Of a DNA stretch of 64,000 bases, positions 23,711 through 40,041 are shown piece after piece. How positions within the stretch are numbered: the stretch's first letter is position 1; the number at the start of each line of letters is the position of its first letter. This stretch comes from Sphingobium sp. Leaf26 (GTDB taxonomy: Bacteria; Pseudomonadota; Alphaproteobacteria; Sphingomonadales; Sphingomonadaceae), in contig NZ_LMKV01000028.1 in NCBI RefSeq assembly GCF_001421665.1, forward strand, positions 186,857 through 250,856, given 5' to 3'. The notes under the pieces are model-generated. The model was given only the letters and a program-made list of their open reading frames with translations. It searched no databases and was not told the origin of the DNA. The position numbers and the translations under genes are program-made.

Positions 23711-23712
23711 GG

Positions 23713-24702: not shown

Positions 24703-24738
24703 TGCCCGGAACAACTTTTTTACTAGGGATTGGAGCAC

Positions 24739-25713
24739 ATGCAGGACTTTAAGGGACGTACCGCGTTCATAACCGGGGGCGCGAGTGGCATGGGCCTGGG
24801 GATGGCGCATGCCTTCGGTAAGGCGGGCATGAACATCATGCTTGCGGATATCACGCCCCATCGCCTGAACGAGGCGTTGGCGGGACTGACCGCCGCAGGC
24901 ATCGTGGCGGACGCGATATGCCTCGATGTCGCTGATCGCACCGCCATGGCGAATGCCGCTGCACGGACGATCGAAAGGTTCGGTGAGGTTCACGTCGTGA
25001 TAGCGAACGCCGGCGTTGGCATTATGGGCAGGGTCCGAGATGCCAGCTATGAAGACTGGGACTGGAGCAACGGTGTAAATTTCGGCGGGGTAGTAAACGC
25101 GATCCAGGAATTCCTGCCGCTCCTGCGCCGACAGGGACGCGGACACTTTGTCGCTAATGCGTCGATGGCAGGTTTGACGCCGGTCGCCCATGGCGGGCTC
25201 TATTCCGTACAAAAGGCCGCTGTGGTGGCGATGTCCGAAGCGCTCTATACCGAGGTTGCCGGCGAGGGCATTGGCGTATCTGTAATTTGCCCCGGCATGG
25301 TGCGCACCAACATCCACGAGACAACGGCTCTTCGTCCCGGCAATCTTCCACAAAGCGCCCGACCTGCCGCTCCCCCGCTAAAACTGCCGGTAGACCCAAC
25401 GCTTTTCATGGATCCCATGGAAGTCGGTGACAGGGTGCTCCGGGGCGTGCAGTCGAAAGACCTGTACATCCTCACCCATAATGAATTCGCCCCTGCGATT
25501 GCAGAGCGTTTCGAGCCCATCTTGTCGGCCATGGCTGACAGCCCGATGGCCGGCCCACCGCCGGGTTTCGAGGGGCCGCCTCCAGGGGGGGCGCCGTCGA
25601 GCGCACCCGATGGACCTCCGAGAGGAGCTGGCGGCGTCGGCGGGGCCGCCCCGCCGCCCGGCTTCAGCGTCTATGGCCGCGTCCTGTCGGCTCGCCAAGC
25701 GGCAGGCGCATGA
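24739..25713 (+). CDS. Short-chain dehydrogenase, LigD/LigL/LigN (C-alpha dehydrogenase)-like, with Pro/Gly-rich tail
   Basis: An NAD(P)-dependent dehydrogenase resembling, from memory of the family, the C-alpha dehydrogenases that oxidise the benzylic alcohol of lignin beta-aryl ethers. Of 324 residues it shows TGGASGMGLG (12-21), NAG (90-92), and the Ser142, Tyr155, Lys159 catalytic set; DWDWSNGVNFGGVVNAI is typical. Residues 271-310 form a Pro/Gly-rich low-complexity tail (PPPGFEGPPPGGAPSSAP and onward) that is unusual for this fold. The ATG overlaps no gene but GGAG precedes it closely. The stop overlaps the next GST start. Confidence 0.88.
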   Translation: MQDFKGRTAFITGGASGMGLGMAHAFGKAGMNIMLADITPHRLNEALAGLTAAGIVADAICLDVADRTAMANAAARTIERFGEVHVVIANAGVGIMGRVRDASYEDWDWSNGVNFGGVVNAIQEFLPLLRRQGRGHFVANASMAGLTPVAHGGLYSVQKAAVVAMSEALYTEVAGEGIGVSVICPGMVRTNIHETTALRPGNLPQSARPAAPPLKLPVDPTLFMDPMEVGDRVLRGVQSKDLYILTHNEFAPAIAERFEPILSAMADSPMAGPPPGFEGPPPGGAPSSAPDGPPRGAGGVGGAAPPPGFSVYGRVLSARQAAGA

Positions 25714-26447
25714 CAGTTGAACTCTATCATTTCGAGCCCAATGCGAACGGCGGAAAGCCGCTGATCGCATTGTTCGAGAAAGGCGTGGCGTTCGAAAGTC
25801 GCTGGGTCGACCTCCTCAACTGGGAGCAACATCAGCCGCCCTATCTGGCGATCAATCCCAAGGGCCAGGTTCCCGCGCTGGTGCATGACGGGACGACGAT
25901 CACTGAATCCACGATCATGGGTGAATATATCGACGAGGTATTCATTGGTCCCTCGTTGAGGCCAGGGGATGCCGCTGGGCGCGAGCGAATGCGTCGCTGG
26001 AGCCGTTTCGGTGACGAATTCCTCGGCCCTTCTCTTTCCATGATTGCCTGGAGCCAGTTCATCGCGCCGATGATGAAGCAACGGCCGCAAGCCGAACTTA
26101 AGAAGGCGCTGGAGGGCGTACCGACCGCCGAGCGCCGCAGCGCCTGGTCCAAAACCATTCACAACGACTTCCATCCGGAGGAACTTGAAGAGTCCCGGCG
26201 GCGCCTCGAGGCGTCCATCGTGCGTCTGGAACAGCAACTGGCCAGGACCGAGTGGCTGGTCGGCACCCAATATACCCTGGCAGACATCAACCTGTTCAAT
26301 ATGGCTGCGCCGCTTCCGATCTTCTGTCCACTCGAAGCAAATATCGAACGGACCCCACATCTCCTTTCATGGATCACTCGGATGCGGGAGCGTCCTGCTG
26401 TGGTGCAGGCCCTTGCCTATTCACGAGACTCGCTGAGGACGCTTTGA
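25710..26447 (+). CDS. Glutathione S-transferase, LigF-type beta-etherase-like
   Basis: A 245-residue two-domain GST. The N-terminal thioredoxin domain (YHFEPNANGGKPLIALFEKG, then QVPALVHDGTTITESTIMGEY) closely follows the pattern I recall for LigF, the beta-etherase that cleaves the ether of lignin dimers with glutathione. LigF-type proteins usually read ANS where this one reads ANG (Asn13, Gly14), so a residue close to the glutathione sulfur has changed. It overlaps the LigD-like dehydrogenase stop by four bases, matching the pathway order oxidation then ether cleavage. Specificity is inferred. Confidence 0.85.
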   Translation: MTVELYHFEPNANGGKPLIALFEKGVAFESRWVDLLNWEQHQPPYLAINPKGQVPALVHDGTTITESTIMGEYIDEVFIGPSLRPGDAAGRERMRRWSRFGDEFLGPSLSMIAWSQFIAPMMKQRPQAELKKALEGVPTAERRSAWSKTIHNDFHPEELEESRRRLEASIVRLEQQLARTEWLVGTQYTLADINLFNMAAPLPIFCPLEANIERTPHLLSWITRMRERPAVVQALAYSRDSLRTL

Positions 26448-26449
26448 CG

Positions 26450-27208
26450 ATGCCTGTTCTCTATCATCAGTCTTTAGTCGGGACCTCTGCGGCCGCGCAC
26501 ATCCTCCTTGCGGAAAAAGATATCGCCTGCGAATATAAAAGGGTCGATCCGCTGGCCGACCCTGCCCAGGACGATCATTTTCTGACATCCCAGGATATGT
26601 GGGAGTTGCCGCTATTCGTCGACGACGATGGGGTGAAAGTATCGGATGCCGGCGCGCTTCTGGAATTTATCGACGAACGATATCCGCTAAAGCCGTTCAT
26701 GCCGCGCTACCCAAAGGGGCGTTGGCAGGCCAGAATCTGGTTGCAGATGATGAACCAGGATCTCGCTTCTGCAACGACGATCCTTGCATGGTCCGAATGG
26801 GGCCGTTTGCATCGTGATGCCGGCAAAATCGACATTCTAGCCAGGGATTTGGCTCCAGGCACGGGGCACGAGCGTCGACGGTTCTGGGTAGAAGCCCTGA
26901 AGGGATTCGACAAAGCTCGCTTGCAAGCCGCCAAGCAAAAGGCCGTGGATAAGGTGCAGGCCATAGAGGACCAGCTTGGCCGCACGAGATGGCTTGCAGG
27001 GTCGACCTATTCGATCGCCGATATTTGCGTCTGGCCCTTTGCCAAAGAGCTGCCGCGCCTCCTCCCATCGCACGCATCGGTCGCCCAAGCGTCGTTGATG
27101 CACGAATGGATTGATCGCATTGCTACCCGTGATGCCGTGATCACCGCCATGAGCGGGGCTGATAACAGCGAGTGGATGCCCGGTGCAGAGCCCATCCGAT
27201 GGGGATAG
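26450..27208 (+). CDS. Glutathione S-transferase family protein, divergent
   Basis: A 252-residue GST-like protein. The N-terminal domain includes MWELPLFVDDDGVKVSDAGALLEFID, covering the cis-proline and the glutathione gamma-glutamyl contact (Ser/Asp), followed by an all-helical C-terminal domain with the folding motif SIADICVW. The first strand lacks the usual catalytic Ser/Tyr/Cys pattern (LYHQSLVGTSAAAHILLAEK). It begins 3 bp after the previous GST stop, so the pair is co-translated and could form a heterodimer. A glutathione lyase or etherase role is plausible by context only. Confidence 0.8.
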   Translation: MPVLYHQSLVGTSAAAHILLAEKDIACEYKRVDPLADPAQDDHFLTSQDMWELPLFVDDDGVKVSDAGALLEFIDERYPLKPFMPRYPKGRWQARIWLQMMNQDLASATTILAWSEWGRLHRDAGKIDILARDLAPGTGHERRRFWVEALKGFDKARLQAAKQKAVDKVQAIEDQLGRTRWLAGSTYSIADICVWPFAKELPRLLPSHASVAQASLMHEWIDRIATRDAVITAMSGADNSEWMPGAEPIRWG

Positions 27209-27400
27209 CAATGCATGTCTCGATTAGAAATATCCAGTTTTGATAATTGGAAATCATAAATATCATTACGTTTAACACTTGTTCCAGAATTAAATAGAAA
27301 TAAGAAATTCGGCTAATTCAATAATATTTGTTCTGATAAATCGATATTGGAACATGTTTTGTTTTGGTGCGGTCAAGATGATTACAAGGATATTACTATT
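27209..27400 (+). promoter_or_regulatory. Strongly AT-rich promoter region with ATCGAT motif
   Basis: About 190 bases of very AT-rich DNA in an otherwise GC-rich window. It holds AATCGATATT at 27339-27348, a variant of the ATCGAT motif seen near gntR, about 55 bp before the dehydrogenase start. It is a likely promoter and regulator-binding region for the second LigD-like gene. Confidence 0.55.
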
Positions 27401-28282
27401 ATGACAGATATCAAGAACAGGACCGCTTTTGTGACGGGGGGAGCTAGTGGCATGGGCCTCGGCATCGCCAAGGCCTTGGCGCATGCCGGTGCACGGGTCG
27501 CGATCGCCGATATCCGCGATGATCATCTAGAAGCAGCGGTGGCAACCGGCCAGGGGGAGGGCGTCAACCTGACCCCATACCGTCTCGACGTCACTGACAG
27601 GGCCGCGCACTCGGACGTCGCAGATGCCGTAGAACGGGATCTAGGAGCAGCCTCCATCATCATCCTCAATGCGGGCATCGGTGTGCTCGGGCATATCAAG
27701 GATGCTAGCTATGCGGATTGGGACTGGATCATGGGGGTCAATCTTGGAGGCGTGCTAAACGGCGTTCGTACGTTCGTGCCCCGTCTGCGAGCCTTGAATG
27801 GAGGCGGGCACGTGCTAGCCACTTCGTCGATGGGTGGACTGGTCGTCGCCGACAGCGGGGGAATTTACTCCGCTGCAAAATTCGGTGTCACAGCCATGAT
27901 GGAATGTCTGCGGGAAGATTTGGCAGGTGATAACATTGGTGTTTCCGTCCTTTGTCCTGCTGCCGTGAACACAAATATCCACCAGCACCACGGCATGAGA
28001 CCCGCTGCCTTTGCCGATGGCAAATATACGCAGTCGGAAGAGGAAGCGGCGCAGCTCAAGCGCATGCTGTCGCATGGCATGGATCCCGATGACGTCGGCG
28101 CGTTGGTCGTAGAAGCCATCGTCGCCAATAAGCCTTTCATCTTTACCGACGGCGGACTTGCTCCTGTCGTGCGCGCGCGCCGGGACGCGTTGATCGCCTC
28201 TTTGCCGGACGAGCCGCGCAACGAAGCGCGATGGCAACAGGATCTCGCGATGCGGCAAGCCATGCGCGATCAGGCATTATGA
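27401..28282 (+). CDS. Short-chain dehydrogenase, LigD/LigL/LigN-like, second copy
   Basis: A 293-residue NAD(P)-dependent dehydrogenase paralogous to the one at 24739 but without its proline-rich tail. The nucleotide motif TGGASGMGLG, NAG at 90-92, Ser142/143, Tyr156 and Lys160 are present, and DWDWIMGVNLGGVLNG matches C-alpha dehydrogenases of sphingomonad lignin-dimer pathways as I recall them. In those strains different paralogues handle the two enantiomers of the benzylic alcohol, which would explain two copies here. The ATG at 27401 has AAGGA about 10 bases upstream. Confidence 0.88.
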   Translation: MTDIKNRTAFVTGGASGMGLGIAKALAHAGARVAIADIRDDHLEAAVATGQGEGVNLTPYRLDVTDRAAHSDVADAVERDLGAASIIILNAGIGVLGHIKDASYADWDWIMGVNLGGVLNGVRTFVPRLRALNGGGHVLATSSMGGLVVADSGGIYSAAKFGVTAMMECLREDLAGDNIGVSVLCPAAVNTNIHQHHGMRPAAFADGKYTQSEEEAAQLKRMLSHGMDPDDVGALVVEAIVANKPFIFTDGGLAPVVRARRDALIASLPDEPRNEARWQQDLAMRQAMRDQAL

Positions 28283-28414
28283 CATTGATGGTGGGGCGAC
28301 GTACGCAAGGCACAAGTGCTTGCCGAAGAGGCGTCGATCCGCACGATGCTTAGCAATTGGACTGTATAAAGGTAGAAGACCGCAGCGCTTATGCAAACCG
28401 AGCATGGAACGCCG

Positions 28415-28861
28415 ATGAACAGACAGGCGCTTGAGGAATATCTACACAGGCAGATTCCACTGGCAGCAGCAGTCGCGGCGAAGGTGGTTCATGCCGACGC
28501 ACACTCGTTGACCCTCTCTGCTCCGCTCGCGCCGAACCTCAACCACAAAAGCACCGCATTTGGAGGTAGTATCTCCGTGCTAGGCATCCTTGCTGCCTGG
28601 GCGATTGTCCATACACGGCTCGAAAGCGAGGGTGTCGCCTGCGAGGTAGTCATCCAGTCCAGCCAGATGGACTATCTCAGGCCTATAACCGGAATTTTTA
28701 CCGCAAAGTCTAGTTTGGTTCGTACCTCGGACTGGCCGATTTTCATGAAAATGCTCGCGCGAAGAAAACGGGCAAGGATTGAGGTCGGGGTGACGCTGTT
28801 CGCAGACGATCTGCCTGCCGCGACGATGACAGGACGCTTCGTTGCCTTTCGTCGAGAATAG
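28415..28861 (+). CDS. YiiD C-terminal-domain-like hotdog thioesterase
   Basis: A 148-residue protein matching the thioesterase-like domain found at the C-terminus of YiiD: LEEYLHRQIPLAAAV, then NHKSTAFGGSISVLGILAAWA, the AFGG motif on the central hotdog helix, and a closing TGRFVAF strand. These proteins are thought to hydrolyse acyl thioesters, possibly CoA or glutathione thioesters, but few are characterised. An in-frame ATG at 28391 is an alternative start; neither has a strong ribosome site. It follows the second LigD-like gene on the same strand. Confidence 0.78.
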   Translation: MNRQALEEYLHRQIPLAAAVAAKVVHADAHSLTLSAPLAPNLNHKSTAFGGSISVLGILAAWAIVHTRLESEGVACEVVIQSSQMDYLRPITGIFTAKSSLVRTSDWPIFMKMLARRKRARIEVGVTLFADDLPAATMTGRFVAFRRE

Positions 28862-29332
28862 TGTCGACCGCTGATATCGCTCCCATGTCCCTCGCCGGCG
28901 CGGCCTGAGAGCGGGTCCACCGCCCCTTCGTAGCCATAACCGCGGTGCGTGAGAATCGGGCAAACGGCAGTTTGGCAAAGGCGTGACAAAGAACGTGCAC
29001 GAGCAGATCGCCGGTACGCAGGGACGGCGATCGAGGGGCCGTACCGGAAAAATGGCCGAGCGAGTTCAGGCGCATGGGGAGCCGGTATCGACTGTACCAG
29101 CGGCCGATCCTCGACGGCAATCACCGCCATGCTCTCCGGGAGGCGGGGCAGTAAAGCCACAACCCATTGCCTGTTCCCCCCGCGTCCCGCTATGCGAAAA
29201 CAGCGCAGGGCTATCACCTCGTGTCGTAAGGGCCGCATCTTCCACTTCTGGCCCAAAAATGATCGGCCAGGGATGCTGACTGGCGTGTATGACCCGGGAC
29301 CGCAGCGAGCAGGCCCCGGATCATAATGTGTA
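28862..29332. other. Region between convergent genes, no gene recognised
   Basis: This 470-bp stretch separates the hotdog gene from a minus-strand GST. Long open frames cross it on the minus strand but their products are Arg/Pro-rich and unlike any family I know, so none is called. It may contain decayed coding sequence. Confidence 0.45.
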
Positions 29333-30082
29333 TCAAAGGCCGGCCGCCCGCAGGGTTTCGCCGATCTTGTTGGGCATGCCAAGGGCCTTTTGGACTGCGG
29401 GCCGAGCATTCATGGCCTCTAGCCAGCGCATGATGTTGGGGGTCTGCTCCAGGCTGACGAGATGGGGTGTCATGCGAGGCAAGCCAGGCGCCACGCAGTA
29501 GGTTGCTATATCCGACAGGCTGTAATCATCACCCGCGGTCCATGCATTCCTCTCCAGGATACGCTCTAGGCGGGTCACGCCTTCCGCGACCCATCGGCCC
29601 GCCTCTGCAAGCTCCGCTTCGCTGAAGCCGTCGCCAGCAATCGTCGCCCACTTCTTCTGACGGTCTCCCATCGGAACCTGGGCGATGCGGTTCGCCATCT
29701 GGTCAGGGCCAAGCTTCTGGGCGAGCGGGCGAAGCAGCATTTGCCATCCGATCCTGCTGGAATAAGGCCCGAAATAGTCATCGACCCATTTGGTCCACGT
29801 CCGCATGCGCGCGCGCCCCAGGGCACTGTCAGGCTTGAGGGAAGGGGAGGGATAGCGGTCATCAAGATATTCATTGATGACCGAGGATTCCGTGACCACC
29901 ACGCCGTCATCGCGCAAGGCGGGGACGATACCGTCAGGATGTATTGCAAGATACTCTGGTCGATGTTGCTCGAAGTTCAGCAGGTTGACGTAGTGGCTCT
30001 CGAACTCCAGCCCTTTTTCGAAGAGGCATATCAGCACCTTCACGGAGTTGGCGATCGGTTCGGCGTGGTACAGTTCCAGCAT
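29333..30082 (-). CDS. Glutathione S-transferase, LigF-type beta-etherase-like, second copy
   Basis: A 249-residue GST that I recognise as close to LigF: YHAEPIANSVKVLICLFEKG at the N-terminus with Ser13 in the ANS motif, then VPALRDDGVVVTESSVINEY, and RMRTWTKWVDDYF in the helical domain. LigF-type enzymes cleave the beta-aryl ether of lignin model dimers with inversion, adding glutathione. Compared with the copy at 25710 it keeps the ANS serine, so it is the better etherase candidate. AAAGGA precedes the ATG. It stands alone on the minus strand downstream of the TonB/MFS pair. Confidence 0.87.
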   Translation of the reverse strand: MLELYHAEPIANSVKVLICLFEKGLEFESHYVNLLNFEQHRPEYLAIHPDGIVPALRDDGVVVTESSVINEYLDDRYPSPSLKPDSALGRARMRTWTKWVDDYFGPYSSRIGWQMLLRPLAQKLGPDQMANRIAQVPMGDRQKKWATIAGDGFSEAELAEAGRWVAEGVTRLERILERNAWTAGDDYSLSDIATYCVAPGLPRMTPHLVSLEQTPNIMRWLEAMNARPAVQKALGMPNKIGETLRAAGL

Positions 30083-30236
30083 TCACGGTCCTTTCGGTGT
30101 TAGAAGAAGGGCGGCGCGACCTTGGCCGCATAGTGGTTGCATCATCTGTGCTCCCAACAGTTCCGACATGCTGATTGGCCCCAATGCCCATGCGAAGGGA
30201 GCCGCATTAGGACTGGTAGCCTCATCGGCGCGAGCA

Positions 30237-30270
30237 TGCCGGCACATCCTCGCGGGAAGATGTGCCGGCA
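30237..30270. terminator. Perfect 12-bp stem-loop downstream of MFS gene
   Basis: TGCCGGCACATC (30237-30248) pairs perfectly with GATGTGCCGGCA (30259-30270) around a 10-base loop. It lies 70 bp beyond the MFS stop codon on the minus strand and could end the tonB-MFS transcript, although no T-run follows. Confidence 0.55.
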
Positions 30271-30340
30271 CGCCATCCCAGCTAGACCAGCAACCTGACC
30301 GGGGATGTTCGTTTGATGTCGAGCGCGCGCCATGGGTCCG

Positions 30341-31705
30341 TCACGCCGTCGTCCGTATGCGGGCGACCTCCTCGCCGTACGGCTTGAGGCCCAGCGTCAG
30401 CAGGATCGCGGATCCGGCTGGAAGTACCAGGGCTGTGCAGAGCAAAGCCCACCGCAAAAGTGCCTCGCGGCCGAACACGAAATCGGTGAGCACGGCGACC
30501 ACAGTCGGGCCCGCCCCGAAGCCGATGACATTGTACATGGCCAGGAAGAGTGCAGTCATCTGGCCCCGCATGCGATTGGGCGTCACCATCATCATCGCGG
30601 CATTCTGGGAGCCGATTGCCGATACTCCGATGGCACCAGAGATGGCGATCATACCGACGGCCAGATAAGGATTGGGCATTAGCGGCATGGCGATGTGGAA
30701 TGGCAAGGCGAGCCACGTCGCCCATACCACGAGCCGAAGGCTGGCGTCGTCATAGCCCTTGCGAATGAAGCTCTCGGTGATGCGGAAGCCGATCATCAGG
30801 CCGATCGGGCTTGCCACCAGTCCGACAATGCCGGCTACGGACCCATAATGGGCCGGAGACCAGCCATGGGTACGGCTGAAGAATGCGGGGCTCCATGCTA
30901 GGGTACCGAAAAACGCGACGCTGTGCAGCGCGAGGCCGATGAACATAGGCCCGAAAACGCTGGCATTCTTGCGGATGTATCGCAAGACTTCGACAAGCGT
31001 TGGCGTATCCTTCCCGGCCGTGGCGTGGCCGCCACGACGTACTGGATCAGGGACCGTCAGGTAAAGCAGCGCAGCAAACAGCCCTGGCAAGCCGACCGCA
31101 AGGAAGGTCAGTTGCCAGGGCTTGAGCGGCCCCATGCCCAGAATGGTCAGGGGGCCGCTGGTCGAGAGGCTTCCAAGGACGAAGCCCCCCAACAGGAGCG
31201 CAAGGGCATTGCCCCCGATGAAGGCGAACGCCAACATCGACATGGCGCGCGGCAGCTTGTGCGGCGGAAACAAGTCCGACACCATCGAGGAGATTGCCGG
31301 TGCGACCCCGGCTTCGCCCGCGCCGACGCCGACGCGAAACAGAGCCAGTTGGAAGAACGACTGCGCAAGGCCGCAAAGGCCAGTCGCAACGCTCCAGATG
31401 GTGACGCAAGTTCCCAGGATGGCGCGCCGCGGTCCCCCATCTATCACCCGTGCCAAGGGCAAGCCGAGGATGAGGTAGAAGGTGATGAATGCGAAACCCA
31501 TTACGAGGCTGATTTGGGTGTCACTCAGATGCAGGTCGGCTTTGATAGGCTCGACAAGCAGGTTGACGACACCCCGATCGACATAACTGATCGTCAAGGT
31601 CACGCCGAAGACAAAAAGAGCCCACCACGCGCGGCCAGCCGGGGGCCATTCTCCTTCAGGCGGATGGGATACGGAATCGACTCCGCCTGTTTCACTGGCA
31701 AGCAT
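30341..31705 (-). CDS. MFS transporter (Spinster-like / aromatic acid type)
   Basis: A 454-residue inner-membrane permease with 12 predicted helices. It opens with WWALFVFGVTLTISYVDRGVV, has the loop 2-3 motif in the form LARVIDGGPRRAIL, and GVGAGEAGVAPAISSMVSDLFP in helix 4-5, a pattern common in Spinster-like carriers of sphingomonad catabolic clusters. It starts 25 bp after the TonB receptor stop, so outer- and inner-membrane uptake are encoded together. Substrate import is the likely role. Confidence 0.88.
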   Translation of the reverse strand: MLASETGGVDSVSHPPEGEWPPAGRAWWALFVFGVTLTISYVDRGVVNLLVEPIKADLHLSDTQISLVMGFAFITFYLILGLPLARVIDGGPRRAILGTCVTIWSVATGLCGLAQSFFQLALFRVGVGAGEAGVAPAISSMVSDLFPPHKLPRAMSMLAFAFIGGNALALLLGGFVLGSLSTSGPLTILGMGPLKPWQLTFLAVGLPGLFAALLYLTVPDPVRRGGHATAGKDTPTLVEVLRYIRKNASVFGPMFIGLALHSVAFFGTLAWSPAFFSRTHGWSPAHYGSVAGIVGLVASPIGLMIGFRITESFIRKGYDDASLRLVVWATWLALPFHIAMPLMPNPYLAVGMIAISGAIGVSAIGSQNAAMMMVTPNRMRGQMTALFLAMYNVIGFGAGPTVVAVLTDFVFGREALLRWALLCTALVLPAGSAILLTLGLKPYGEEVARIRTTA

Positions 31706-31729
31706 GCGGTGGTGCTCCTCGAGTATGAT

Positions 31730-34165
31730 TTAGAAGCGATGGCGCACGACGAGTTGCCATTCGCGCGGTCGGCCGGGTTGGCCCAGCGCGGTGCCGCTCG
31801 CTGCCACCGTCTCGAACTTGTTGAGATAATAATATTTGTTGAAGAGGTTGCTGACGGCGAGACTGACATCGATGTCCCGCTCAGGTGACTTCCAGGTGAG
31901 CTGGGCATTGGCCAGTGTATAGTCGGAAATGGAATTGAATTCGCTCGAGACCGACCCAGTATAGATATCGTCCTGGAACAGCACGTCGAACCGCGGGGTC
32001 AGGGAACCGTGGTCGCCAAGGTCGAATTCATATTGGACGCCAATGTTCCACTTCCACTTCGGCATGAATTCGCGCCGGGAGTCGAGCGTAATGCCGCCGC
32101 TGGCCGCGGCTGCGCTGATGGAGGTATATTTGAAATCGAGATAGCTGAGCGAGGCATCGATATCGAGGCCGGCCAGCGGCTTAATCCGCGTTTCGATTTC
32201 GAAGCCCTTGAGATCCGCTGTGCCGCCATTCGCGATCACATAGGCCGGTGCCGTGCCTGCCGACGGATTATAGGTTGGCGAGAAAGGATTCTCATCGATC
32301 GGAATGTTCGGATTGACGTAGGGATTGCGGTTCTGAATCAGAATATTTCGATATTTGTTCAGGAATACCGATGCGTTCAAGGTCAATGCCCGGTCGAACA
32401 ACTCGGACTTGACCCCGAGTTCGTAGGCATCGAGGGCTTCAGGGTCGAACGATACGACCTGGTTGCTGTAGAAGGGGCGAGGATTAATGCCACCGCTACG
32501 GAACCCGGTCGACCATTGCGCATAGACCATGACGTCGTCGTTCAGATGATAATCCGCGTTGATCTTGTAATCCACGCGCTTGTTCTTGGCCTCGCCGGTG
32601 ACACCATCAATCGCTGCGAGTGCGGGCGGTGGCGCACCGGTTGCCGGGTCTTCCCGATTGAATGTATAGGTCTTGCGTTCATTGGAATAGCGGATGCCCG
32701 CCGTGACGTTGAGACGATCGGTCACATGGAGGGTTCCATGGGCAAACACCGACTGGCTGCGGGAATGGGCAGGGTCGTACAGGAGCGTGTCGAAGTTGCT
32801 GGGGAAAAACACACGCCCGCCCGTGATGTCCCGCGATTTGAAGTAAAACCCACCCACGGTCCATTCGAGATGCCGGTCGAAACTGGCACCGGACAGACGC
32901 AATTCCTGGCTGAACTGCCGATGCCGGAAGTCATTGCTGACCAACTGCATACCAAAAGGTGTTTCATCGGCATCATTGTTAAAGATGCCGTGATATTCAC
33001 GATAGGCTGTAATCGACTTCAGGGACAAGCCATCGGTGATCGTCCAGTCGACCACGCCCGACAGACCCCAGTCGACCAGATCGTTGTTGCGCTGAAGCGA
33101 AATACCACCGGCCGGGAGCGTTAGCACTTGGCCCGTGCGCGTGACATAGTTGCCGCCGGAATTGTCGTATGTCGCGTAATTGCGGTAGGTGCCTGCAGTG
33201 ACAAACCGCGAATCGAAGGGGGTACCGCTCAAGAAGGAGCGACCGCGACTCTCGATGTGGGTCACAACCGAAGCCGCTGGCTCCGACTTGTCGTTGCTGA
33301 CGTCGCCTGTCAACGTGACCGATACATCACTCGACGGCGTCCAGCGCAGCGAACCACGCAAGCCGTAATATTCCTGGCCACCCTCGCTGCCGATCTTGCA
33401 GCTCTTGGACGTGCGAACCGAGGGCACGCCCGATCCGGGATTGAGGCAGCCATAGTCGTAGCTCGTGACATAGCCATCGCTGTAGCGTGCAACGCCGGCG
33501 AGCCTAACGGCCAGCTTGTCCTCGATGATCGGCAGGTTGAGGCTGCCACGAATGCCCTTGCGGTCGAAGCTGCCCAGATTGGCTTCGATCGAGCCGCTCA
33601 TCTCGTTGTCGGGCTTGCGCGAGAACAGCTTCAGCGATCCGCCAATAGAATTCTTTCCCGCCAGGGTACCTTGCGGTCCGCGCAGGATCTCGATGCGATC
33701 GACATCGACCAAGTCGAACACCGAACCGAACACCGTCGAGTAATAAACGTCATCGATATAGACGCCTACGCCAGGTTCGAGGGCGAAGTTCGTGTCGGCC
33801 TGCCCGATGCCGCGGATGAAGATCTGAGTGGCCGGACCATAAGCCGAGCCCGCGGGCTTAATCACGACGTTCGGCGCCTGCTCGCCGATGTCGCTGAGCT
33901 TGTTCAAATTGCGCGCCTGCAGCAACTGCGCATCGAGCGCCGTAATGGCAAGCGGCGTATCCTGCAGCTTCTGACTGCGGAATTGGGCGGTCACGATGAT
34001 TTCGCTGTTGGTCACTGGCGCTTGTGCACGCCCGCTCGCGGCGTCGGTCTGCGCCTGGGTTGTCTGCTTCTGGCTGGCTTGCGCGAGTGCCGGCTGGGCA
34101 ATCACCGTAGAGGCCAATAACGCAATTCGCGTGACGTGATGGTTCCGAAGCTTTGCACGCAACAT
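31730..34165 (-). CDS. TonB-dependent outer-membrane receptor
   Basis: An 811-residue receptor. The N-terminus has a signal peptide (about 1-28, ending QPALAQAS), a Gln/Ala linker, a TonB box-like SEIIVTAQFRSQ, a plug with DTPLAITALDA and GSAYGPATQIFIRGIGQ, and a 22-strand barrel region ending in an aromatic residue (VRHRF). Sphingomonads use such receptors to take up bulky aromatics, including lignin-derived dimers. GGGAGGA lies just before the ATG. The upstream gap has a GntR-type ATCGAT motif 81-100 bp from the start. It heads an operon with the MFS gene. Confidence 0.94.
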   Translation of the reverse strand: MLRAKLRNHHVTRIALLASTVIAQPALAQASQKQTTQAQTDAASGRAQAPVTNSEIIVTAQFRSQKLQDTPLAITALDAQLLQARNLNKLSDIGEQAPNVVIKPAGSAYGPATQIFIRGIGQADTNFALEPGVGVYIDDVYYSTVFGSVFDLVDVDRIEILRGPQGTLAGKNSIGGSLKLFSRKPDNEMSGSIEANLGSFDRKGIRGSLNLPIIEDKLAVRLAGVARYSDGYVTSYDYGCLNPGSGVPSVRTSKSCKIGSEGGQEYYGLRGSLRWTPSSDVSVTLTGDVSNDKSEPAASVVTHIESRGRSFLSGTPFDSRFVTAGTYRNYATYDNSGGNYVTRTGQVLTLPAGGISLQRNNDLVDWGLSGVVDWTITDGLSLKSITAYREYHGIFNNDADETPFGMQLVSNDFRHRQFSQELRLSGASFDRHLEWTVGGFYFKSRDITGGRVFFPSNFDTLLYDPAHSRSQSVFAHGTLHVTDRLNVTAGIRYSNERKTYTFNREDPATGAPPPALAAIDGVTGEAKNKRVDYKINADYHLNDDVMVYAQWSTGFRSGGINPRPFYSNQVVSFDPEALDAYELGVKSELFDRALTLNASVFLNKYRNILIQNRNPYVNPNIPIDENPFSPTYNPSAGTAPAYVIANGGTADLKGFEIETRIKPLAGLDIDASLSYLDFKYTSISAAAASGGITLDSRREFMPKWKWNIGVQYEFDLGDHGSLTPRFDVLFQDDIYTGSVSSEFNSISDYTLANAQLTWKSPERDIDVSLAVSNLFNKYYYLNKFETVAASGTALGQPGRPREWQLVVRHRF

Positions 34166-34245
34166 CTTATCCTCCCTCTATGCCCCAGGCTTTGCCTGGC
34201 GATTATCAATCAAGAACTGCGATATAAAAGATGATTCGGCTTTAG

Positions 34246-34265
34246 GTCAAATTTAATCGATAATT
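34246..34265. promoter_or_regulatory. GntR-type motif before the TonB receptor
   Basis: GTCAAATTTAATCGATAATT, a 20-base sequence that matches 36122-36141 at 19 of 20 positions. It lies 81 bp upstream of the TonB receptor start in AT-rich DNA, placing it in the promoter. Proposed binding site for the GntR regulator at 36130. Confidence 0.6.
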
Positions 34266-34389
34266 TCCGTGATAGTGCTGGAAAGAGGATGACCACTCAC
34301 GGTAGCGACCTGCCATGATGGTCGACCAAGGATGGCAAAAGCACCCGATCTGGGATCCGACGGACGACAGCATCACGGCGTCGGCGACC

Positions 34390-35808
34390 TTATCTGAGCA
34401 GCACAAGTTCCTCGGCCATGCTCGGATGGAGTGCCATGGTGGCGTCGAAATCGCGTTTCGTGAGGCCGGCTTTCACCGCGATCGCCGCGGCCTGCAGGAT
34501 CTCGGGCGCATCGGGGCCGATCATATGGAGACCCAGCACCCTGTCGCTCGTCCCATCCACCACCATCTTGTACAGCGCCCGCTCCGTCCGTCCGGTCAGG
34601 GTATTTTTCATGGGTCTGAAGTCACTACGGAATATCTTGATGACAGGGTGGATCAGGCGGGCGGCAGCCTCGGTCAATCCAACCGACGCAAGGGGCGGCT
34701 GGCTGAAACAGGCGCTGGGGATCGCTTCATAATCGACAGGCGCTTTGTGGTCGCCGAAGAACGCATCGGCAAAAGCCTGTCCTTCGCGAATGGCAACCGG
34801 CGTGAGTTGAACGCGGTTGGTGACGTCGCCGACGGCAAAGATGCTTTTGCAGGTCGTGGCACCGTACTCGCCCACGATGATGGCGCCCGCCGCGTCAGTG
34901 GCAACGCCTGCGGTTTCGAGACCGAGCCCGCCGGTATAGGGCTGTCGTCCCATCGCGTAGACGAGGCGGTCGCATCGGACGGCCTCGCCTTTTGAAAGTC
35001 CAATCAGCAGCGACCCATCGGGTTGGCGTTCGACGCTGCGAAGGTCGGTGCCGGTTCTAAAGCTTATGCCCTTGTCAGCGCTTGCCTGTACGAGACGATC
35101 GACCAGTTCCTGGTCATAGCCCCTGAGCATTGTCTCTGACCGGACGACGACTGAGACGGAGGAACCAAGGGCATTGAACAGGCCTGCAAACTCCTGTGCG
35201 ATATATCCACCCCCCAGGATCACGACGCGTCGAGGCAGTTCAGCCAGGCCAAAGACCTCATTGGACGTGATGCCCAGGTCAGCGCCAGGCAGCGCATCGA
35301 CCGTTGGCATGATCGGCCAGGCTCCCACGGCAAGAAGTATCCGGCGGGCGGTCATGGTCCGGCCATTGGCCAGTTGCACGATATGCGGGCCTGCCAGGCG
35401 AGCCCGTTCCAGATGGATCGAGACATTATGTTTGCGCAGGGTCGCCTCGTATAGGCCGTTGAGACGGCTGACCTCGGCCTGTACGTTGTCCCGCAGGATC
35501 TGCCAGTCGAACTGTCGGGCAGGCAGATGCCACCCCAGCGATTCCGCGCCGGCAAGATCTTCGGCGAAACTCGCTCCATACAGGAGGAGCTTCTTGGGTA
35601 CGCAGCCGCGGATCACGCACGTCCCGCCAACACGATGCTCTTCTGCCAGTCCGACGCGCGCGCCGTGGGCAGCCGCGACCCTTGCCGCACGTACCCCTCC
35701 CGAGCCGGCGCCTATGACGAAAAGATCGTAGTCAAATCGCTCCCCGTCCTTGGTCAGTCCGTCTTGCGCACCCAAGGATTTTTCAACGCCTGCTTCACCT
35801 GCTGTCAT
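34390..35808 (-). CDS. gor: Glutathione-disulfide reductase
   Basis: NADPH-dependent flavoprotein that regenerates GSH from GSSG. The 472-residue protein has FAD motif GAGSGGVRAA, redox cysteines Cys64 and Cys69 (GTCVIRGCVPKK), the NADPH motif GGGYIAQEFA, FAVGD for FAD, and C-terminal base His461-Glu466 (HPSMAEE). The VIRGCVPKK form is characteristic of glutathione reductases. Beta-etherase pathways consume GSH, so its place among four GST genes is logical. The N-terminus is about 20 residues longer than usual and the ribosome site is weak, so the start is uncertain. Confidence 0.9.
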   Translation of the reverse strand: MTAGEAGVEKSLGAQDGLTKDGERFDYDLFVIGAGSGGVRAARVAAAHGARVGLAEEHRVGGTCVIRGCVPKKLLLYGASFAEDLAGAESLGWHLPARQFDWQILRDNVQAEVSRLNGLYEATLRKHNVSIHLERARLAGPHIVQLANGRTMTARRILLAVGAWPIMPTVDALPGADLGITSNEVFGLAELPRRVVILGGGYIAQEFAGLFNALGSSVSVVVRSETMLRGYDQELVDRLVQASADKGISFRTGTDLRSVERQPDGSLLIGLSKGEAVRCDRLVYAMGRQPYTGGLGLETAGVATDAAGAIIVGEYGATTCKSIFAVGDVTNRVQLTPVAIREGQAFADAFFGDHKAPVDYEAIPSACFSQPPLASVGLTEAAARLIHPVIKIFRSDFRPMKNTLTGRTERALYKMVVDGTSDRVLGLHMIGPDAPEILQAAAIAVKAGLTKRDFDATMALHPSMAEELVLLR

Positions 35809-36129
35809 GCCCGCTTACACCTGCACACCGGACGTGCTGCCCGGTCAGTTCGAAGGAACCACGCCTCCAAGGTCATGCGCCGACCAAGGCAGCGTGGATG
35901 CGATGCTGGCGCTTGGCATCAGGTTTGGGCTTGACGGCAGTCCCGCCGGTCGGTTGGTCGACCGGACCACACGCTCTGCGCCGCGATCGCGAAGGGCGCA
36001 GGACGGCAGTCGCCCTGCACGACCAGCCGCTTAACAAAGGCGCACCGCAACGGAGTTCCGCAAGCCGCTTTACCATATCAAGCGGCAACGCCACGGCGCA
36101 TAAACGATAAATTTTGATTAAGTCAAATT
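35809..36129. promoter_or_regulatory. Region between gntR and gor with long AT-rich inverted repeat
   Basis: No gene is supported in the GC-rich part (35809-36090). At 36105-36135 a 31-bp inverted repeat pairs 12 of 13 arm positions (CGATAAATTTTGA against TCAAATTTTATCG). Its right arm joins the ATCGATAAT motif and overlaps the end of gntR. It may be a regulator-binding site serving gor or a downstream promoter. Confidence 0.5.
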
Positions 36130-36141
36130 TTATCGATAATT
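36122..36141. promoter_or_regulatory. GntR-type motif at the 3' end of gntR
   Basis: GTCAAATTTTATCGATAATT differs at one base from the site before the TonB receptor. Its core TTATCGATAA is a perfect 10-bp palindrome and includes the last codons and stop of gntR. Confidence 0.55.
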
Positions 36142-36852
36142 ACTACCAGGGAGTCCTTGCTCTTCAAATAGTCGGTCGACCAGGGCCGCCGTTCGGCGCA
36201 CATGGGTTTGGCAAAGTTCAAGCACATCATTGGTCCGGCGATTGATCGCGGCGTCCGCCATTTCTGCATGTTCGTTCGACGTCGGGCGATGCGGCGCTTC
36301 ACGGTTTTGCTGGGCAAGCAGCCGGTAGCGCTCGGAAAAATCGAAGAGAGTGTCCATGAAATCCACCAATGGAGGTGAGCCGGCCGCTGCAATGATCGAA
36401 CGATGAAAGTCTCGATGTGCCATCCTCGCTGCCGGATTTAGCCGCGCAGGGTCGCCCACCAGCCACTGGGCGCGATTGAGCCGGTGGAGACAGATGACGA
36501 TATTCTCCTCCCACTGGGTATCGCCTTGTTCAAGCGATCGGGGGATCAAGATGCCGTATAAGGAGCAACGGGCGTCGGTCAGCTCATGCAAATCCTCTTG
36601 CGACACTGGAGCAACGACGAAGCCTCGCTGATCGAATTGCACGACCAGCTTTTCCATCGAGAGACGGTTCAGTGCCTCTCGAATCGGTGATGTTCCCAGA
36701 TCATAGCGCTGCTTGAGCTGTTCGATGCGCAATTTCTCACCGGGAGCCAGAGCTCCGGTGACGATCTCGTCGCGGATTTGCTCGTAGATCGAGGACGCAA
36801 GCGTTGCCCTTCCGTTTGCCTCGTCACCCAGATTCCGCCGGCCCATTGTCAC
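36130..36852 (-). CDS. GntR-family (FCD domain) transcriptional regulator
   Basis: A 240-residue regulator. The N-terminal winged helix reads ASSIYEQIRDEIVTGALAPG, then LGTSPIREALNRLSMEKLVV, the standard GntR recognition region. The C-terminal FCD ligand domain includes AHRDFHRSIIAAAGS with metal-binding histidines. It is divergent from the FAD monooxygenase operon, with an ATCGATAAT motif between them, so autoregulation and control of that operon are likely. FCD regulators commonly respond to small organic acids, which would suit a lower-pathway intermediate. Confidence 0.92.
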   Translation of the reverse strand: MTMGRRNLGDEANGRATLASSIYEQIRDEIVTGALAPGEKLRIEQLKQRYDLGTSPIREALNRLSMEKLVVQFDQRGFVVAPVSQEDLHELTDARCSLYGILIPRSLEQGDTQWEENIVICLHRLNRAQWLVGDPARLNPAARMAHRDFHRSIIAAAGSPPLVDFMDTLFDFSERYRLLAQQNREAPHRPTSNEHAEMADAAINRRTNDVLELCQTHVRRTAALVDRLFEEQGLPGSNYR

Positions 36853-36902
36853 TCCTTATAGATTTTGGCCGTTCTGCCACATTTTCCGTTGCTGCGCGAA
36901 AA

Positions 36903-36922
36903 ATTTTGAATTAATCGATAAT
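36903..36922. promoter_or_regulatory. GntR-type motif in the gntR / FAD monooxygenase divergent promoter
   Basis: ATTAATCGATAAT (36910-36922) lies in an AT-rich stretch between gntR (start 36852) and the FAD monooxygenase (start 36971). A second partial copy TTGTCGATAAAC follows at 36941. It shares the core with the sites at 34246, 36122 and 23713. Confidence 0.6.
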
Positions 36923-36970
36923 ATGATTCAACAATAAAAGTTGTCGATAAACGAGATGGAAGGGGGCATA

Positions 36971-38476
36971 GTGGCAATCCAGCCAAAATCCTATGATGTC
37001 TGCATTGCCGGATTTGGTCCGGTAGGCGCAGTTCTGGCAGCACTGCTCGGCGCGCAAGGGCGATCGGTCGTTGTCCTGGAGCGCGATCAGGGCCCCTTCC
37101 CCCTCCCGCGCGCAGCGCACATCGATGGCGAAACCATGCGCACGTTCCAAGCACTTGGGATTGTCGAAGATGTCGAGCCCCATGTGCGGCCCGCCCCCGC
37201 CTATCAGTTCGTGAGTGCGAATGCAGACATATTGATCGACGTTCCGGCTGGTGAAGTGGGTGCGGACGGATGGTTCACCCATTATATGATCTACCAGCCA
37301 GGCATCGAAAAGGCCCTGCGCCAACGCTGCGCTGCGCTGCCTAATGTCGAGTTGCGGCTTGGCTCCCGCCTGTCTGGCCTGATGGATGACGGCGACGGCG
37401 TGACCGTGACCTACAATGGTCCCGGCGGCGCCGAAGAGAGCTTGCATGCAGCACTGCTGGTCGGTTGCGATGGTGCTTCCAGCTTGGTGCGTTCGCTCGT
37501 CAACATCGAGCTGGACGATTATGGGTTCGACGAGCCCTGGCTGGTGCTTGACGTGGCGGTCGATGACGACAGCCGTGTCCCGGCGCAATGCTACCAATAT
37601 TGCGATCCTCGTCGGCCTGTGACCTACACCCCCATGGGACCAGGACGCAATCGCTGGGAATTCATGATCCTTCCTCACGAAACACCCGAGGCAATGATGG
37701 AGGAGGCGGCGGTCGCTCGGCTGCTGGCCCCATGGGGCGGCCTCGATGGCCTTCACGTCGAGCGCCGTGCCGTCTATCATTTTCACGGGTTGATTGCCCG
37801 CGAATGGCGCAGAGGGCGGGTTCTACTCGCTGGTGATTCCGCGCATCAGATGCCGCCTTTCGCGGGGCAGGGGATGTGCTCAGGCATCCGCGACGCCGCC
37901 AACCTGGCTTGGAAGATTGCCGCGGCCCTTAATGGGGGTCCATTCGACATCTTGCTCGAAAGCTATGAGCAGGAGCGCGCACCGCATGCCCGCGGGATCG
38001 TGGAGATGGCAATTGCTGCAGGGCGGGCCGTCTGCACGCTGGACTTTGATGCGGCGCGGGCGCGCGACGAACGCGCACGGCAGGATCGACTGAACGGCGT
38101 CGCACCGCCCGCCTTGCAGTTGCCTCCGCTTGGAAAGAGCCCCCTCCTTGGCAGTGGTCATTCGGCCGGCCAGCATTTCCCCCAGTTCATTGGTCCCGAC
38201 GGTAGCCGCCTCGATGATGTCCTGGGCCAAGGGCCATGGCTGATCGAACATCGCGGCACCGGCGAACCGAAAGTCTGCGTGGGCCAGATCGGCATCGATC
38301 ACCCGGCGCTCGCGCCGTTCGCAGACGACTTGAGCGCATGGTTCGACCAAAACAGGGCGTCGGGCGCGGTACTCGTGCGGCCCGACCGCGTCATTTTCGA
38401 CACTGGTACGCCGGGGGCGTTGTGGTCCGCCTGGACCGAGCGTGTCGAATCCCCCGCCCGACATGAGGTATCATGA
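36971..38476 (+). CDS. FAD-dependent aromatic hydroxylase (MhpA/PheA-type), copy 2
   Basis: Class A flavin monooxygenase, 501 residues, predicted to hydroxylate a phenolic ring. Motifs: [13 protein letters not shown] for ADP binding, [10 protein letters not shown] (DG motif) and [20 protein letters not shown] (GD motif). Paralogous to the copy at 18413; [12 protein letters not shown] and RFHG/HFHGL segments are shared. The GTG at 36971 was chosen for the AAGGGGG four bases upstream; ATG at 36956 and TTG at 36941 are alternatives. It begins an operon with a GST and an FAH gene and is divergent from gntR. Confidence 0.92.
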
Positions 38477-39153
38477 TGATTGAATTCTACACCGCCTCGA
38501 CCCCAAATGGCTGGAAGGTCGCCATCACCCTTGAGGAACTCGCGCTACCTTACGAGGTCCACGCGCTCGATCTATCGGCGAACGACCAGAAGCAACCGGA
38601 CTATCTGCGCATCAACCCCAACGGTCGCATTCCCGCCATCGTGGATGTAGATGCCGAAGGGGGACCGTTCGCTGTTTTCGAATCCGGCGCGATCCTCATG
38701 TACCTTGCGCATAAGGCGGGGCGCCTCCTGCCCTTGGACGCACGAGGGCAATCCGAAGCGCTGCAATGGGTCATGTTCCAGGCTTCGGGGCTGGGACCCA
38801 TGATGGGCCAGGCGGGGGTGTTCCTGCGCTACGCGAAGGAGAAGATTCCCTTTGCGATCGACCGGTACCAACGCGAGACACGGCGCCTGCTGGAGGTTCT
38901 CGACCGTCGCCTGGCGAGCCGCGAATGGCTGGTGGGCGACGCCTATTCGGTTGCGGATATCGCACATTGGAGCTGGGCCCATACCCATGGCTTCGTCGGC
39001 GTCGAAGCACAGGGGCTCGATCATTTCGCGGCGTGGCTAGCGCGCGTCGCGGCGCGTCCGGCGGTCCAACGTGGCCTGTCCGTGCCCAAGCGTATCGATC
39101 TCAATACGATCGACGAGGCAGAAATCGAGCGCCGGCGGGGCAACCTCGCCTGA
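38473..39153 (+). CDS. Nu-class glutathione S-transferase
   Basis: A 226-residue GST of the YfcG/YghU (Nu) type, recognisable by [14 protein letters not shown], the [11 protein letters not shown] loop and [11 protein letters not shown]. Nu-class enzymes can bind two glutathiones and have disulfide reductase or glutathione-lyase activity; in sphingomonads members release glutathione from the thioether formed by beta-etherases (known for Novosphingobium, from memory). The ATG overlaps the monooxygenase stop, and GAGG precedes it. Such a glutathione-removing step would complete the etherase pathway; this is inference. Confidence 0.88.
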
Positions 39154-39183
39154 TCTTACCTTAATCTTGAAATGGAAAATGCC

Positions 39184-40041
39184 ATGAAACTTGCACGATT
39201 TACAGCCAACGGGACAACGCGTATCGGGAAGGTGGTCGATGACCAGATCGTGGACCTGTCGCAGGTGCCCGGCGTAACCGGCTCGATGCGCCAACTTCTC
39301 GAGGACCTGCCTCGCCTTCGTGATAGTTTGGAGAGGGCCACCGATCCCGCGCTGCCGTTGGCCTCGGTTCGCCTTGAAGCACCGATCGCCGACCCGCAGA
39401 AGTTCCTTGCCATCGGCATGAACTACAAGGCCCATGCGGAGGAGGCGGCAGCCGCCGGAATTTCCACGCCCAAAAGCCAGCTTTGGTTCAACAAGCAGGT
39501 AAGCTGCATTGCCGGTCCGAGCGACGCCATCGTCCGGCCTCAAGTCTCGGACAAGCTCGACTATGAAGCCGAGCTGGCCTATGTGATCGGCAAGCGTTGC
39601 CGCCATGTCGATGCCAAGGATGCGCTTGACGTGGTTGCGGGATATATGGTCGCGAACGATGTTTCGGTACGTGACTGGCAGCATCGTTCGCCGACCTACA
39701 CGTTGGGCAAGTCGTTCGACACCCATGGTCCGATTGGGCCTTGGATCACGACTGCGGATGAAGTCGCCGATGCGCAGGATCTGTCGATACGCCTGACTGT
39801 CGATGGGGTGGAGCGCCAACAAGCGCGCACGAATGATCTTATCTACGGTATCGCCGAGCAGATCGCTTATCTGACAACGGTCATGACCCTTTACCCGGGC
39901 GACGTCATCGCGACCGGCACGCCATCGGGCGTGGCCGCGGTCGATGAAAATTGGTTGAAGCCAGGGCAGGTCGTGCGGGTCGAGATCGAAAAGCTCGGGG
40001 CTATCGAAAACACGGTCGAGGCAGAGGTCGTCGCTGCATAG
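39184..40041 (+). CDS. FAH-family hydrolase / isomerase, copy 2
   Basis: A 285-residue fumarylacetoacetate hydrolase-fold enzyme of the fumarylpyruvate-hydrolase or 2-hydroxyhepta-diene-dioate-isomerase type. Visible landmarks: FLAIGMNYKAHAEEA, the metal-binding LDYEAELAYVIGK, NDVSVRDWQ, and the GDVIATGTPSGV motif near the C-terminus. It probably hydrolyses or isomerises the product of meta- or gentisate-type cleavage. The ATG at 39184 with GGAAA upstream is preferred over 39172. A hairpin (TTGCCGGT/ACCGGCAA, about 40178-40220) after the gene may end the operon. Confidence 0.9.
   Translation: MKLARFTANGTTRIGKVVDDQIVDLSQVPGVTGSMRQLLEDLPRLRDSLERATDPALPLASVRLEAPIADPQKFLAIGMNYKAHAEEAAAAGISTPKSQLWFNKQVSCIAGPSDAIVRPQVSDKLDYEAELAYVIGKRCRHVDAKDALDVVAGYMVANDVSVRDWQHRSPTYTLGKSFDTHGPIGPWITTADEVADAQDLSIRLTVDGVERQQARTNDLIYGIAEQIAYLTTVMTLYPGDVIATGTPSGVAAVDENWLKPGQVVRVEIEKLGAIENTVEAEVVAA

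Follow-up and report, generated by a model that had tools for sequence, protein, structure and literature searches.

Organization of the catabolic block

Analysis of a 64,000-nucleotide stretch of the draft genome (4.82 Mb) of Sphingobium sp. Leaf26 (contig NZ_LMKV01000028.1, positions 186,857 to 250,856; hereafter the window) uncovered a block at 23.77–40.04 kb encoding two C-alpha-dehydrogenase-like short-chain dehydrogenases/reductases (SDR1 and SDR2), four glutathione S-transferases (GSTA, GSTB, GSTF, and GSTNu; GSTs), a glutathione reductase (GR), major facilitator superfamily (MFS) and TonB-dependent uptake proteins, and genes for aromatic ring opening. The latter comprise an extradiol dioxygenase-like protein (ED2), a flavin-dependent monooxygenase (FMO2), and fumarylacetoacetate-hydrolase family proteins (FAH1 and FAH2). 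Read along the window, the order is FAH1 on the reverse strand; ED2, SDR1, GSTA, GSTB, SDR2, and a thioesterase (TE) on the forward strand; GSTF, the MFS transporter, the TonB receptor, GR, and a GntR regulator on the reverse strand; and FMO2, GSTNu, and FAH2 on the forward strand. Profile and PDB matches recovered all of the gene types named in a first-pass annotation of the letters and open reading frames (two SDRs, GSTs, a Nu-class GST, a glutathione reductase, and MFS/TonB uptake).

Two runs of genes are tightly packed: ED2-SDR1-GSTA-GSTB, with gaps of 27, −4, and 2 bp and SDR2 following 138 bp on, and FMO2-GSTNu-FAH2, with gaps of −4 and 18 bp. These spacings indicate that each operon mixes GST with ring-opening genes. 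The arrangement is unusual in that an extradiol gene heads an etherase operon, while a lyase-type GST lies between a hydroxylase and a FAH gene; as the first-pass annotation had said, gene order and ring-opening partners are unlike those of published lig clusters. The whole genome contains 20 GST_N matches, so that four GSTs within 13.4 kb has a Poisson probability of 3.9e-7, or ~8e-6 when 20 possible starts are allowed for; a lig locus on another contig (C3) holds several as well. Conservation of the block in a distant genome, described below, is a stronger argument against chance than this clustering.

GSTA and GSTB form a BaeAB-like pair

GSTA (25710–26447, forward) and GSTB (26450–27208, forward) are best read from their sequences as one pair, a BaeA-like subunit and its BaeB-like partner, which represents a deep branch of BaeAB, the heterodimeric beta-etherase that cleaves beta(R)-MPHPV. 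According to PMC6369299 (Kontur et al.), baeA lies directly upstream of baeB, a catalysis-critical Asn in A is replaced by Ala in B, and BaeAB of S. xenophagum NBRC 107872 (SxeBaeAB) was assayed; the N. aromaticivorans pair is Saro_2873/2872. Locus L155 belongs to strain NBRC 107872, and its pair was taken as the assayed BaeAB. The top PDB match of GSTA is LigF (4XT0, E 1.9e-47; next best, E 7.2e-17), although its closest characterized kin is BaeA, given 48–49% identity to BaeA-type proteins (48% to the S. xenophagum protein) versus 41% to LigF. GSTB matches solved proteins weakly (SspA, 4e-10; LigF, 2e-8), and its structure model, with a predicted local distance difference test (pLDDT) value of 81, retrieves LigF as the top PDB match (template-modeling scores 0.79/0.82).

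Residue patterns separate the two subunits. In an alignment, the critical Asn is kept in 15/15 A-type and 13/13 LigF-type rows and missing in 15/15 B-type rows, where GSTB has Thr. A C-terminal RWG is likewise shared by all 15 B rows and found in no A or LigF-type row, although the 4XT0 row is truncated short of its C terminus. When 84,980 species genomes were scanned with a pattern, 409 pattern matches and 308 relatives resulted, of which the best 80 loci were kept. Where at least 850 bases followed the A gene (73 loci), a downstream same-strand partner with the RWG tail was found at 71, the exceptions being L122 and L144, and none of the 80 A proteins has the tail. The string ‘RWG’ is absent from the main text of PMC6369299, figures aside. 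In the structure model of GSTB, the tail falls in a low-confidence end.

In trees of hand-picked rows, GSTA was placed in the BaeA clade (support 98, starred, in a quick tree; 94/96, not starred, in a careful tree) and GSTB in the BaeB clade (95, starred, and 99/95, starred, respectively). Each pairs first with the same gammaproteobacterial metagenome-assembled genome (MAG) from a bog, and the internal branching of the A and B clades is alike, though not identical. The pair thus resembles BaeAB in its A-then-B order on one strand, the Asn in A only, its clade placement, and the RWG tail on B. It differs in its 2 bp gap, where all but one of the cases in the main text of PMC6369299 overlap, and in an operon that begins with an extradiol gene. 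The first-pass annotation had listed two LigF-type GSTs and a divergent one; a LigF-type protein is indeed encoded at 29333–30082 (GSTF), but the genes at 25710–26447 and 26450–27208 are better read as a BaeAB-like pair.

Relatives are sparse among close taxa. Outside its own genome, the best match to GSTA in the family sample is 51% identical, and among 199 genomes of the family and 94 of the genus, none of the listed matches that cover most of GSTB exceeds 33%. Another deep BaeAB-like pair occurs in two related genomes (L075:6704-8253 and L077:8512-10010) beside TonB/MFS genes, and L075 also holds a LigF-type GST.

GSTF represents a third LigF-type lineage

GSTF (29333–30082, reverse) matches LigF 4XT0 best among solved proteins (E 6.2e-51; next best, E 7.8e-22) and keeps Asn13/Ser14 of LigF as NS. 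It is 43% identical to 4XT0, 42% to the genome’s own LigF, 41–42% to BaeA-type proteins, and 39.2% to the presumed LigF2 (L118), which places it above the LigF homologue level (>39% identity). GSTF and its bog MAG orthologue (72% identity) are joined with starred 100/100 support outside both the 4XT0 LigF clade and the presumed LigF2/DesD clade, the latter label resting on L118 (N. subterraneum), whose gene lies ~9 kb from baeA. GSTF therefore belongs to neither subclade but to a separate third lineage common to the bog MAG; apart from that MAG, its best match in 200 genomes of the MAG’s family is 52% identical. An isoprene-epoxide GST reading was rejected (IsoI, 23 bits against a cut-off of 300).

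Saro_2865, taken here as representative of GSTF’s sister lineage, is named NaLigF2 in PMC6369299 and desD in PMC12997858, and passages of PMC8091115 propose DesC/DesD as converters of CHMOD, the ring-opened product of the syringate route. By this analogy, the GSTs and SDRs of the block could serve ring opening itself, with GSTF, and perhaps GSTA/GSTB, isomerizing or conjugating ring-opened products and no beta-ether being cleaved; the GST genes do share operons with ED2, FMO2, and FAH2. We nevertheless regard this as rather unlikely. GSTF lies outside the presumed LigF2/DesD clade, and the four loci around its nearest relatives (L183–L186; L187 was left out as belonging to the presumed LigF2 side) contain Nu-class GST, SDR, aldehyde dehydrogenase (ALDH), DUF3237, or lignostilbene-type genes and no match to the ED, FMO, or FAH proteins of the window, a gene company that favors an etherase role. 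In addition, no GST is listed in five plasmid neighborhoods of ED2 relatives (PLSDB annotation being incomplete), and two such SDRs, a lyase, and a glutathione reductase would presumably all be superfluous to a DesD-like role.

GSTNu, glutathione reductase, and an ordinary lignin-dimer set elsewhere in the genome

GSTNu (38473–39153, forward; 4 bp overlap with FMO2) is a candidate glutathione lyase, as judged by its class. Its best PDB matches are 4eci (270 bits) and 6tah (267 bits), the latter titled a Nu-class GST, and TPN near its N terminus provides a T-x-N site (equivalence to Thr51/Asn53 assigned by eye). Identity is 57% to a GST that lies divergently beside LigF on contig C3 and 59–61% to Nu-class GSTs in the vicinity of other relatives of BaeA or GSTF; a relative of at least 50% identity is present in 13 of the 80 best BaeA loci (of 308) and also near the GSTF relatives of L183 and L186. 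FMO-GST-FAH operons resemble the gentisate route. A maleylacetoacetate/maleylpyruvate-isomerase reading was nonetheless rejected (maiA, 42 bits against a cut-off of 171), and YfcG-type models scored 173–185 bits, also under their own cut-offs. According to PMC7691349, Nu-class lyases, which take glutathione off GS-HPV, yield hydroxypropiovanillone (HPV) and oxidized glutathione (GSSG), which then needs a reductase, and the Nu-class lyase NmGST3 stands beside the LigF-E-G genes of strain MBES04. GSTNu is thus like NaGSTNu, NmGST3, and LigQ in class, and the C3 enzyme is divergent beside LigF as NmGST3 is beside its LigF homologue, but GSTNu differs in sitting within an FMO-FAH operon. The island GR (34390–35808, reverse) scores 538.8 bits with NF004776 (cut-off 480) and 560 bits with the narrower TIGR01424, below the cut-off of 606; it is one of two glutathione reductases above the NF004776 cut-off in the genome, the other being on contig C2 (586 bits).

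Contig C3 (locus L071) encodes an ordinary lignin-dimer set: a LigF 66% identical to that of SYK-6, a BaeB 84% identical to S. xenophagum BaeB, a Nu-class GST, and SDRs 58% identical to LigO and 46% to LigL. The island block is therefore a second set. It does not show the ligD-F-E-G order of the classical ligDFEG operon, and no LigE-type GST exceeds the cut-off in the genome (best, 31.9 bits against 440 with NF042997, the NCBIfam beta-etherase model taken as the LigE type).

Alternatively, the block could be a spare copy of the ordinary machinery that acts on the same guaiacyl/syringyl beta-ethers as the C3 set and has ring-opening genes as mere neighbors. Its families are those of the lignin pathway, and the surrounding island carries many other catabolic genes and adjoins conjugation genes. 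We consider this unlikely, as ED2 lies inside the GST-pair operon and GSTNu inside the FMO-FAH operon, the ED2 linkage recurs in another class, and C3 already supplies the strain with LigF, BaeAB, a Nu-class GST, and SDRs.

SDR1 and SDR2 resemble C-alpha-dehydrogenases

SDR1 (24730–25713, forward; ATG at 24739; adh_short, 148.5 bits) overlaps GSTA by 4 bp, and SDR2 (27347–28282, forward; first ATG at 27401; adh_short, 146.6 bits) follows GSTB. Solved C-alpha-dehydrogenases are among the best PDB matches of both, with 4YA6 as the top match of SDR2 (E 1.4e-61); LigD/L/N/O, together with 3IOY, are their nearest solved SDRs. SDR1 is 35–37% and SDR2 40–41% identical to LigD, LigL, and LigO, identified through the PDB entries that we take to represent these proteins. 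SDR1 also extends past its region of alignment with solved C-alpha-dehydrogenases by a Pro/Gly-rich low-complexity tail of ~50 residues.

FMO2, ED2, and FAH proteins form a plausible meta-cleavage line

FMO2 (36941–38476, forward) is an MhpA-type flavin hydroxylase (NF004829, 503 bits; cut-off 390), ED2 (23770–24702, forward) a two-domain VOC-type extradiol dioxygenase-like protein (PF00903, 48 bits) in which His/His/Glu candidates are present by eye, and FAH1 (22715–23746, reverse; PF01557, 99 bits; divergent from ED2 with a 23 bp gap) and FAH2 (39172–40041, forward; PF01557, 239 bits) belong to the fumarylacetoacetate-hydrolase family. Relatives of ED2 lie beside MhpA-type FMO and FAH genes on two of five plasmids, one of them from a legume-nodule Microvirga, which makes FMO2-ED2-FAH a plausible hydroxylation and meta-cleavage line for one of the products that ether cleavage would release. 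The plasmid contexts were also considered as a guide to the substrate, but they are mixed and gave no answer.

For the fde/ifc pathways (naringenin and isoflavones), the parts of the literature available describe action on the A-ring by an FMO and a dioxygenase of the glyoxalase fold. At the level of enzyme type, the block shares with these pathways an FMO and a VOC-type dioxygenase (FdeC/FdeE and IfcA/IfcB there), and it shares FAH with the plasmid cassettes; it differs in that these genes are interleaved with SDRs and GSTs. The first-pass annotation had raised a polyphenol as the substrate, and the island could accordingly act on flavonoids or flavonolignans, with an FMO-extradiol-FAH route as in fde/ifc and GSTs that cleave the ether of a flavonolignan. 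The two plasmids on which ED2 relatives adjoin FMO and FAH genes, one of them from a legume nodule, are in keeping with this idea, which we hold to be very unlikely: no cupin was found among the 48 window proteins scanned with Pfam, and the same parts of the fde/ifc literature do not name an SDR/GST set.

The remaining genes of the block encode a YiiD_C-type thioesterase (28391–28861, forward; PF09500, 138 bits), the MFS transporter (30341–31705, reverse; PF07690, 137 bits), the TonB-dependent receptor (31730–34165, reverse; PF00593, 137 bits, and PF07715), and a GntR/FCD regulator (36130–36852, reverse; PF00392 and PF07729).

Most of the block is conserved in a gammaproteobacterial bog MAG

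The top match of the genome scan was contig PLAH01000181.1 of the bog MAG, where the GSTA relative is 66% identical; all others among the best 80 of 308 reach at most 54%. Genes on this contig are ordered ED2, SDR1, GSTA, GSTB (forward), GSTF (reverse), SDR2 (forward), and MFS (reverse), with identities to the window proteins of 67 (ED2), 59 (SDR1), 66 (GSTA), 43 (GSTB), 72 (GSTF), 73 (SDR2), and 63% (MFS). The ED2 orthologue stands just before SDR1, as in the window, and among the best 80 BaeA loci, ED or GSTB relatives occur at this locus only. Relatives of a further window cassette, FAH3-ED3-FMO3 (54, 63, and 65%), are on the same contig ~20 kb from the GST block. A second MAG contig, C181 (3,715 bases), carries relatives of GntR (63%), FAH2 (47%), and FMO2 (60%, cut by the contig end). 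The MFS gene is split between the two contig ends (residues 13–209 on C181 and 198–449 on PLAH01000181.1; 63–67% identity), and the two contigs probably form one locus, a join that we infer because their ends read nearly, not exactly, alike. A third contig, C143, has a GSTNu fragment (75%) beside a FAH1 relative (59%).

The association of SDRs and GSTs with ring-opening genes is therefore common to another proteobacterial class. The block has probably moved between lineages, and identities of 43–73% indicate no recent transfer between these two. The bog MAG contig also encodes a GMC oxidoreductase (L182:8520-10232), an ALDH (L182:7024-8520), and a beta-keto acid cleavage enzyme (L081:1522-2406), which we presume could serve HpvZ/ValA-type later steps.

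A proposed divergent beta-ether cleavage pathway linked to ring opening

We consider it reasonably probable, judging from sequence, that the block specifies a second and divergent pathway of glutathione-dependent beta-ether cleavage, tied to a hydroxylation and meta-cleavage route of its own. The SDR/etherase/lyase/reductase set matches the known scheme outlined in PMC6369299 and PMC7691349, in which C-alpha oxidation is followed by attack of glutathione on the beta carbon, removal of the glutathionyl group, and recycling of GSSG. What we observe directly is which genes are present, how their operons are laid out, where their products fall among families, which active-site residue patterns they show, and that most of the block is conserved in the MAG; from these observations we infer a scheme that covers heterodimer formation, stereochemistry, every reaction, their order, and the substrate. 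The TonB receptor and MFS transporter would import the substrate, and SDR1 and SDR2 would act on a beta-ether dimer, oxidizing its benzylic alcohol to the ketone. The GSTA/GSTB pair, in which GSTA would be the catalytic and GSTB a chiefly structural subunit, would then, together with GSTF, attack the beta-carbon of opposite enantiomers with glutathione, releasing a phenol. GSTNu would take off the glutathione as GSSG, to be recycled by the island glutathione reductase. FMO2 would hydroxylate an aromatic product to a catechol, ED2 would carry out extradiol cleavage, and FAH1/FAH2 would finish the route. Interleaving in both directions, with GSTs in ring-opening operons and an extradiol gene in the GST operon, and the repetition of the ED2 linkage in another class argue for one pathway.

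Several observations weigh against this reading. SDR1 and SDR2 lie outside the LigD/O and LigL clades, each pairing with its MAG orthologue (starred, 100 and 99), and so cannot be called lignin-clade enzymes; the SDR tree is a quick one built without bootstrap and without LigN, and its deeper branches do not resolve. At the position held by Ser in the 13 remaining A rows, GSTA and its MAG orthologue carry Gly; in BaeAB, Ser to Ala chiefly raised Km (PMC6369299). GSTB is 28–29% identical to BaeB, is ranked by BLAST score nearer to BaeA and a LigF-type row than to BaeB, and sits on a long branch in the careful tree. Against the S. xenophagum and N. subterraneum proteins, GSTA shows 48% identity and 240–246 bits and GSTB 28–29% and 58–66 bits, so that with these stand-ins for the Saro sequences the pair falls short of the homologue level set in PMC6369299, which asks for >50% identity along with >200 bits to BaeA and BaeB of N. 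aromaticivorans. The long branch, the BLAST ranking, and this shortfall are why we name the pair a BaeAB-like deep lineage and not a BaeAB orthologue. GSTF, beside ring-opening genes, may not be an etherase in vivo, since Saro_2865 is implicated in converting a ring-opened product. In the MAG, the SDR2/GSTF and FMO2/FAH2 orders are swapped relative to the window, GSTNu is represented only by the 79-residue fragment on another contig, the TonB receptor is only 33% identical, and no GR or thioesterase relative was found in the stretches examined. The pattern-limited scan found the block in this one other genome only.

The enzyme logic of lignin-dimer breakdown proposed in the first-pass annotation is thus upheld for beta-ether cleavage, by three GSTs that branch within the BaeA, BaeB, and LigF-type clades and largely retain the active-site patterns, by the Nu-class GST, and by the second glutathione reductase, but the suggested phylogeny did not bear it out for the SDRs. 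The substrate is not nameable from sequence, and the doubt expressed there on this point was justified. That most genes are kept together in a bog bacterium of another class suggests a still uncharacterized route for ether-linked plant aromatics. A broader proposal, which we find possible but doubtful, is that a self-contained beta-ether pathway has spread between proteobacterial classes, in which deep LigF- and BaeAB-type branches feed a dedicated FMO-extradiol route, and catechol-type or non-methoxylated ethers (e.g., demethylated brown-rot or bog lignin, flavonolignans) are both cleaved and ring-opened by a single block without vanillate or protocatechuate.

No published etherase-extradiol operon was recognized among the literature records listed, most subscription journals being outside their reach. 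Work on lignin-related dimers has centered on those with two guaiacyl moieties, according to a 2026 review (PMC12997858); the block points to specific enzymes with possible activity on other ethers. It also adds a deep lineage to the BaeAB family, recognizable by a partner that has an RWG tail and no Asn, and it connects ether cleavage with extradiol ring opening at the level of the operon, a link open to testing with a handful of purified proteins.

Island surroundings and mobility

A TrbC/VirB2 protein, a T2SSE-family (TrbB-like) ATPase, and a TraG-type coupling protein at 1718–5572 match plasmid conjugation genes, which abut a catabolic island of lower GC (0.659 over 1–6000 versus 0.597 over 6001–59700). 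In megablast searches against 72,556 plasmid records, 25001–49999 gave no match, and for 1–25000 the best 10 of 62 matching plasmid records match only within 21–5528, the conjugation genes.

The lignostilbene-type oxygenase (6173–7612; PF03055, 387 bits), placed next to the Lig-type set by the first-pass annotation, is in fact 17 kb away. ED1 (17475–18416, forward), an extradiol-type paralogue of ED2 (61–62%), is followed by FMO1 (18368–19888, forward), an MhpA-type paralogue of FMO2 (48%). Between this pair and a P450 lies an acetoacetate-decarboxylase-fold protein (20138–21031). The P450 (21328–22569) has CYP199 enzymes as nearest solved relatives and is a possible aromatic O-demethylase; CYP199A4 acts on p-methoxybenzoate. 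On the other side of the block are a LuxR-type regulator with an autoinducer-binding domain (40307–41098), inside the catabolic island, and a meta-cleavage cassette on the reverse strand composed of the MhpA-type FMO3 (45342–47033), FAH3 (47014–47883), and the extradiol-type ED3 (47884–48750). Two Rieske oxygenase proteins, one with a LigXa_C domain, and a Fer2/NAD reductase at 49255–55454 are a possible O-demethylase set. Further on, 57626–62277 encodes a histidine kinase and response regulator, then an outer-membrane efflux protein and an HlyD-type adaptor.

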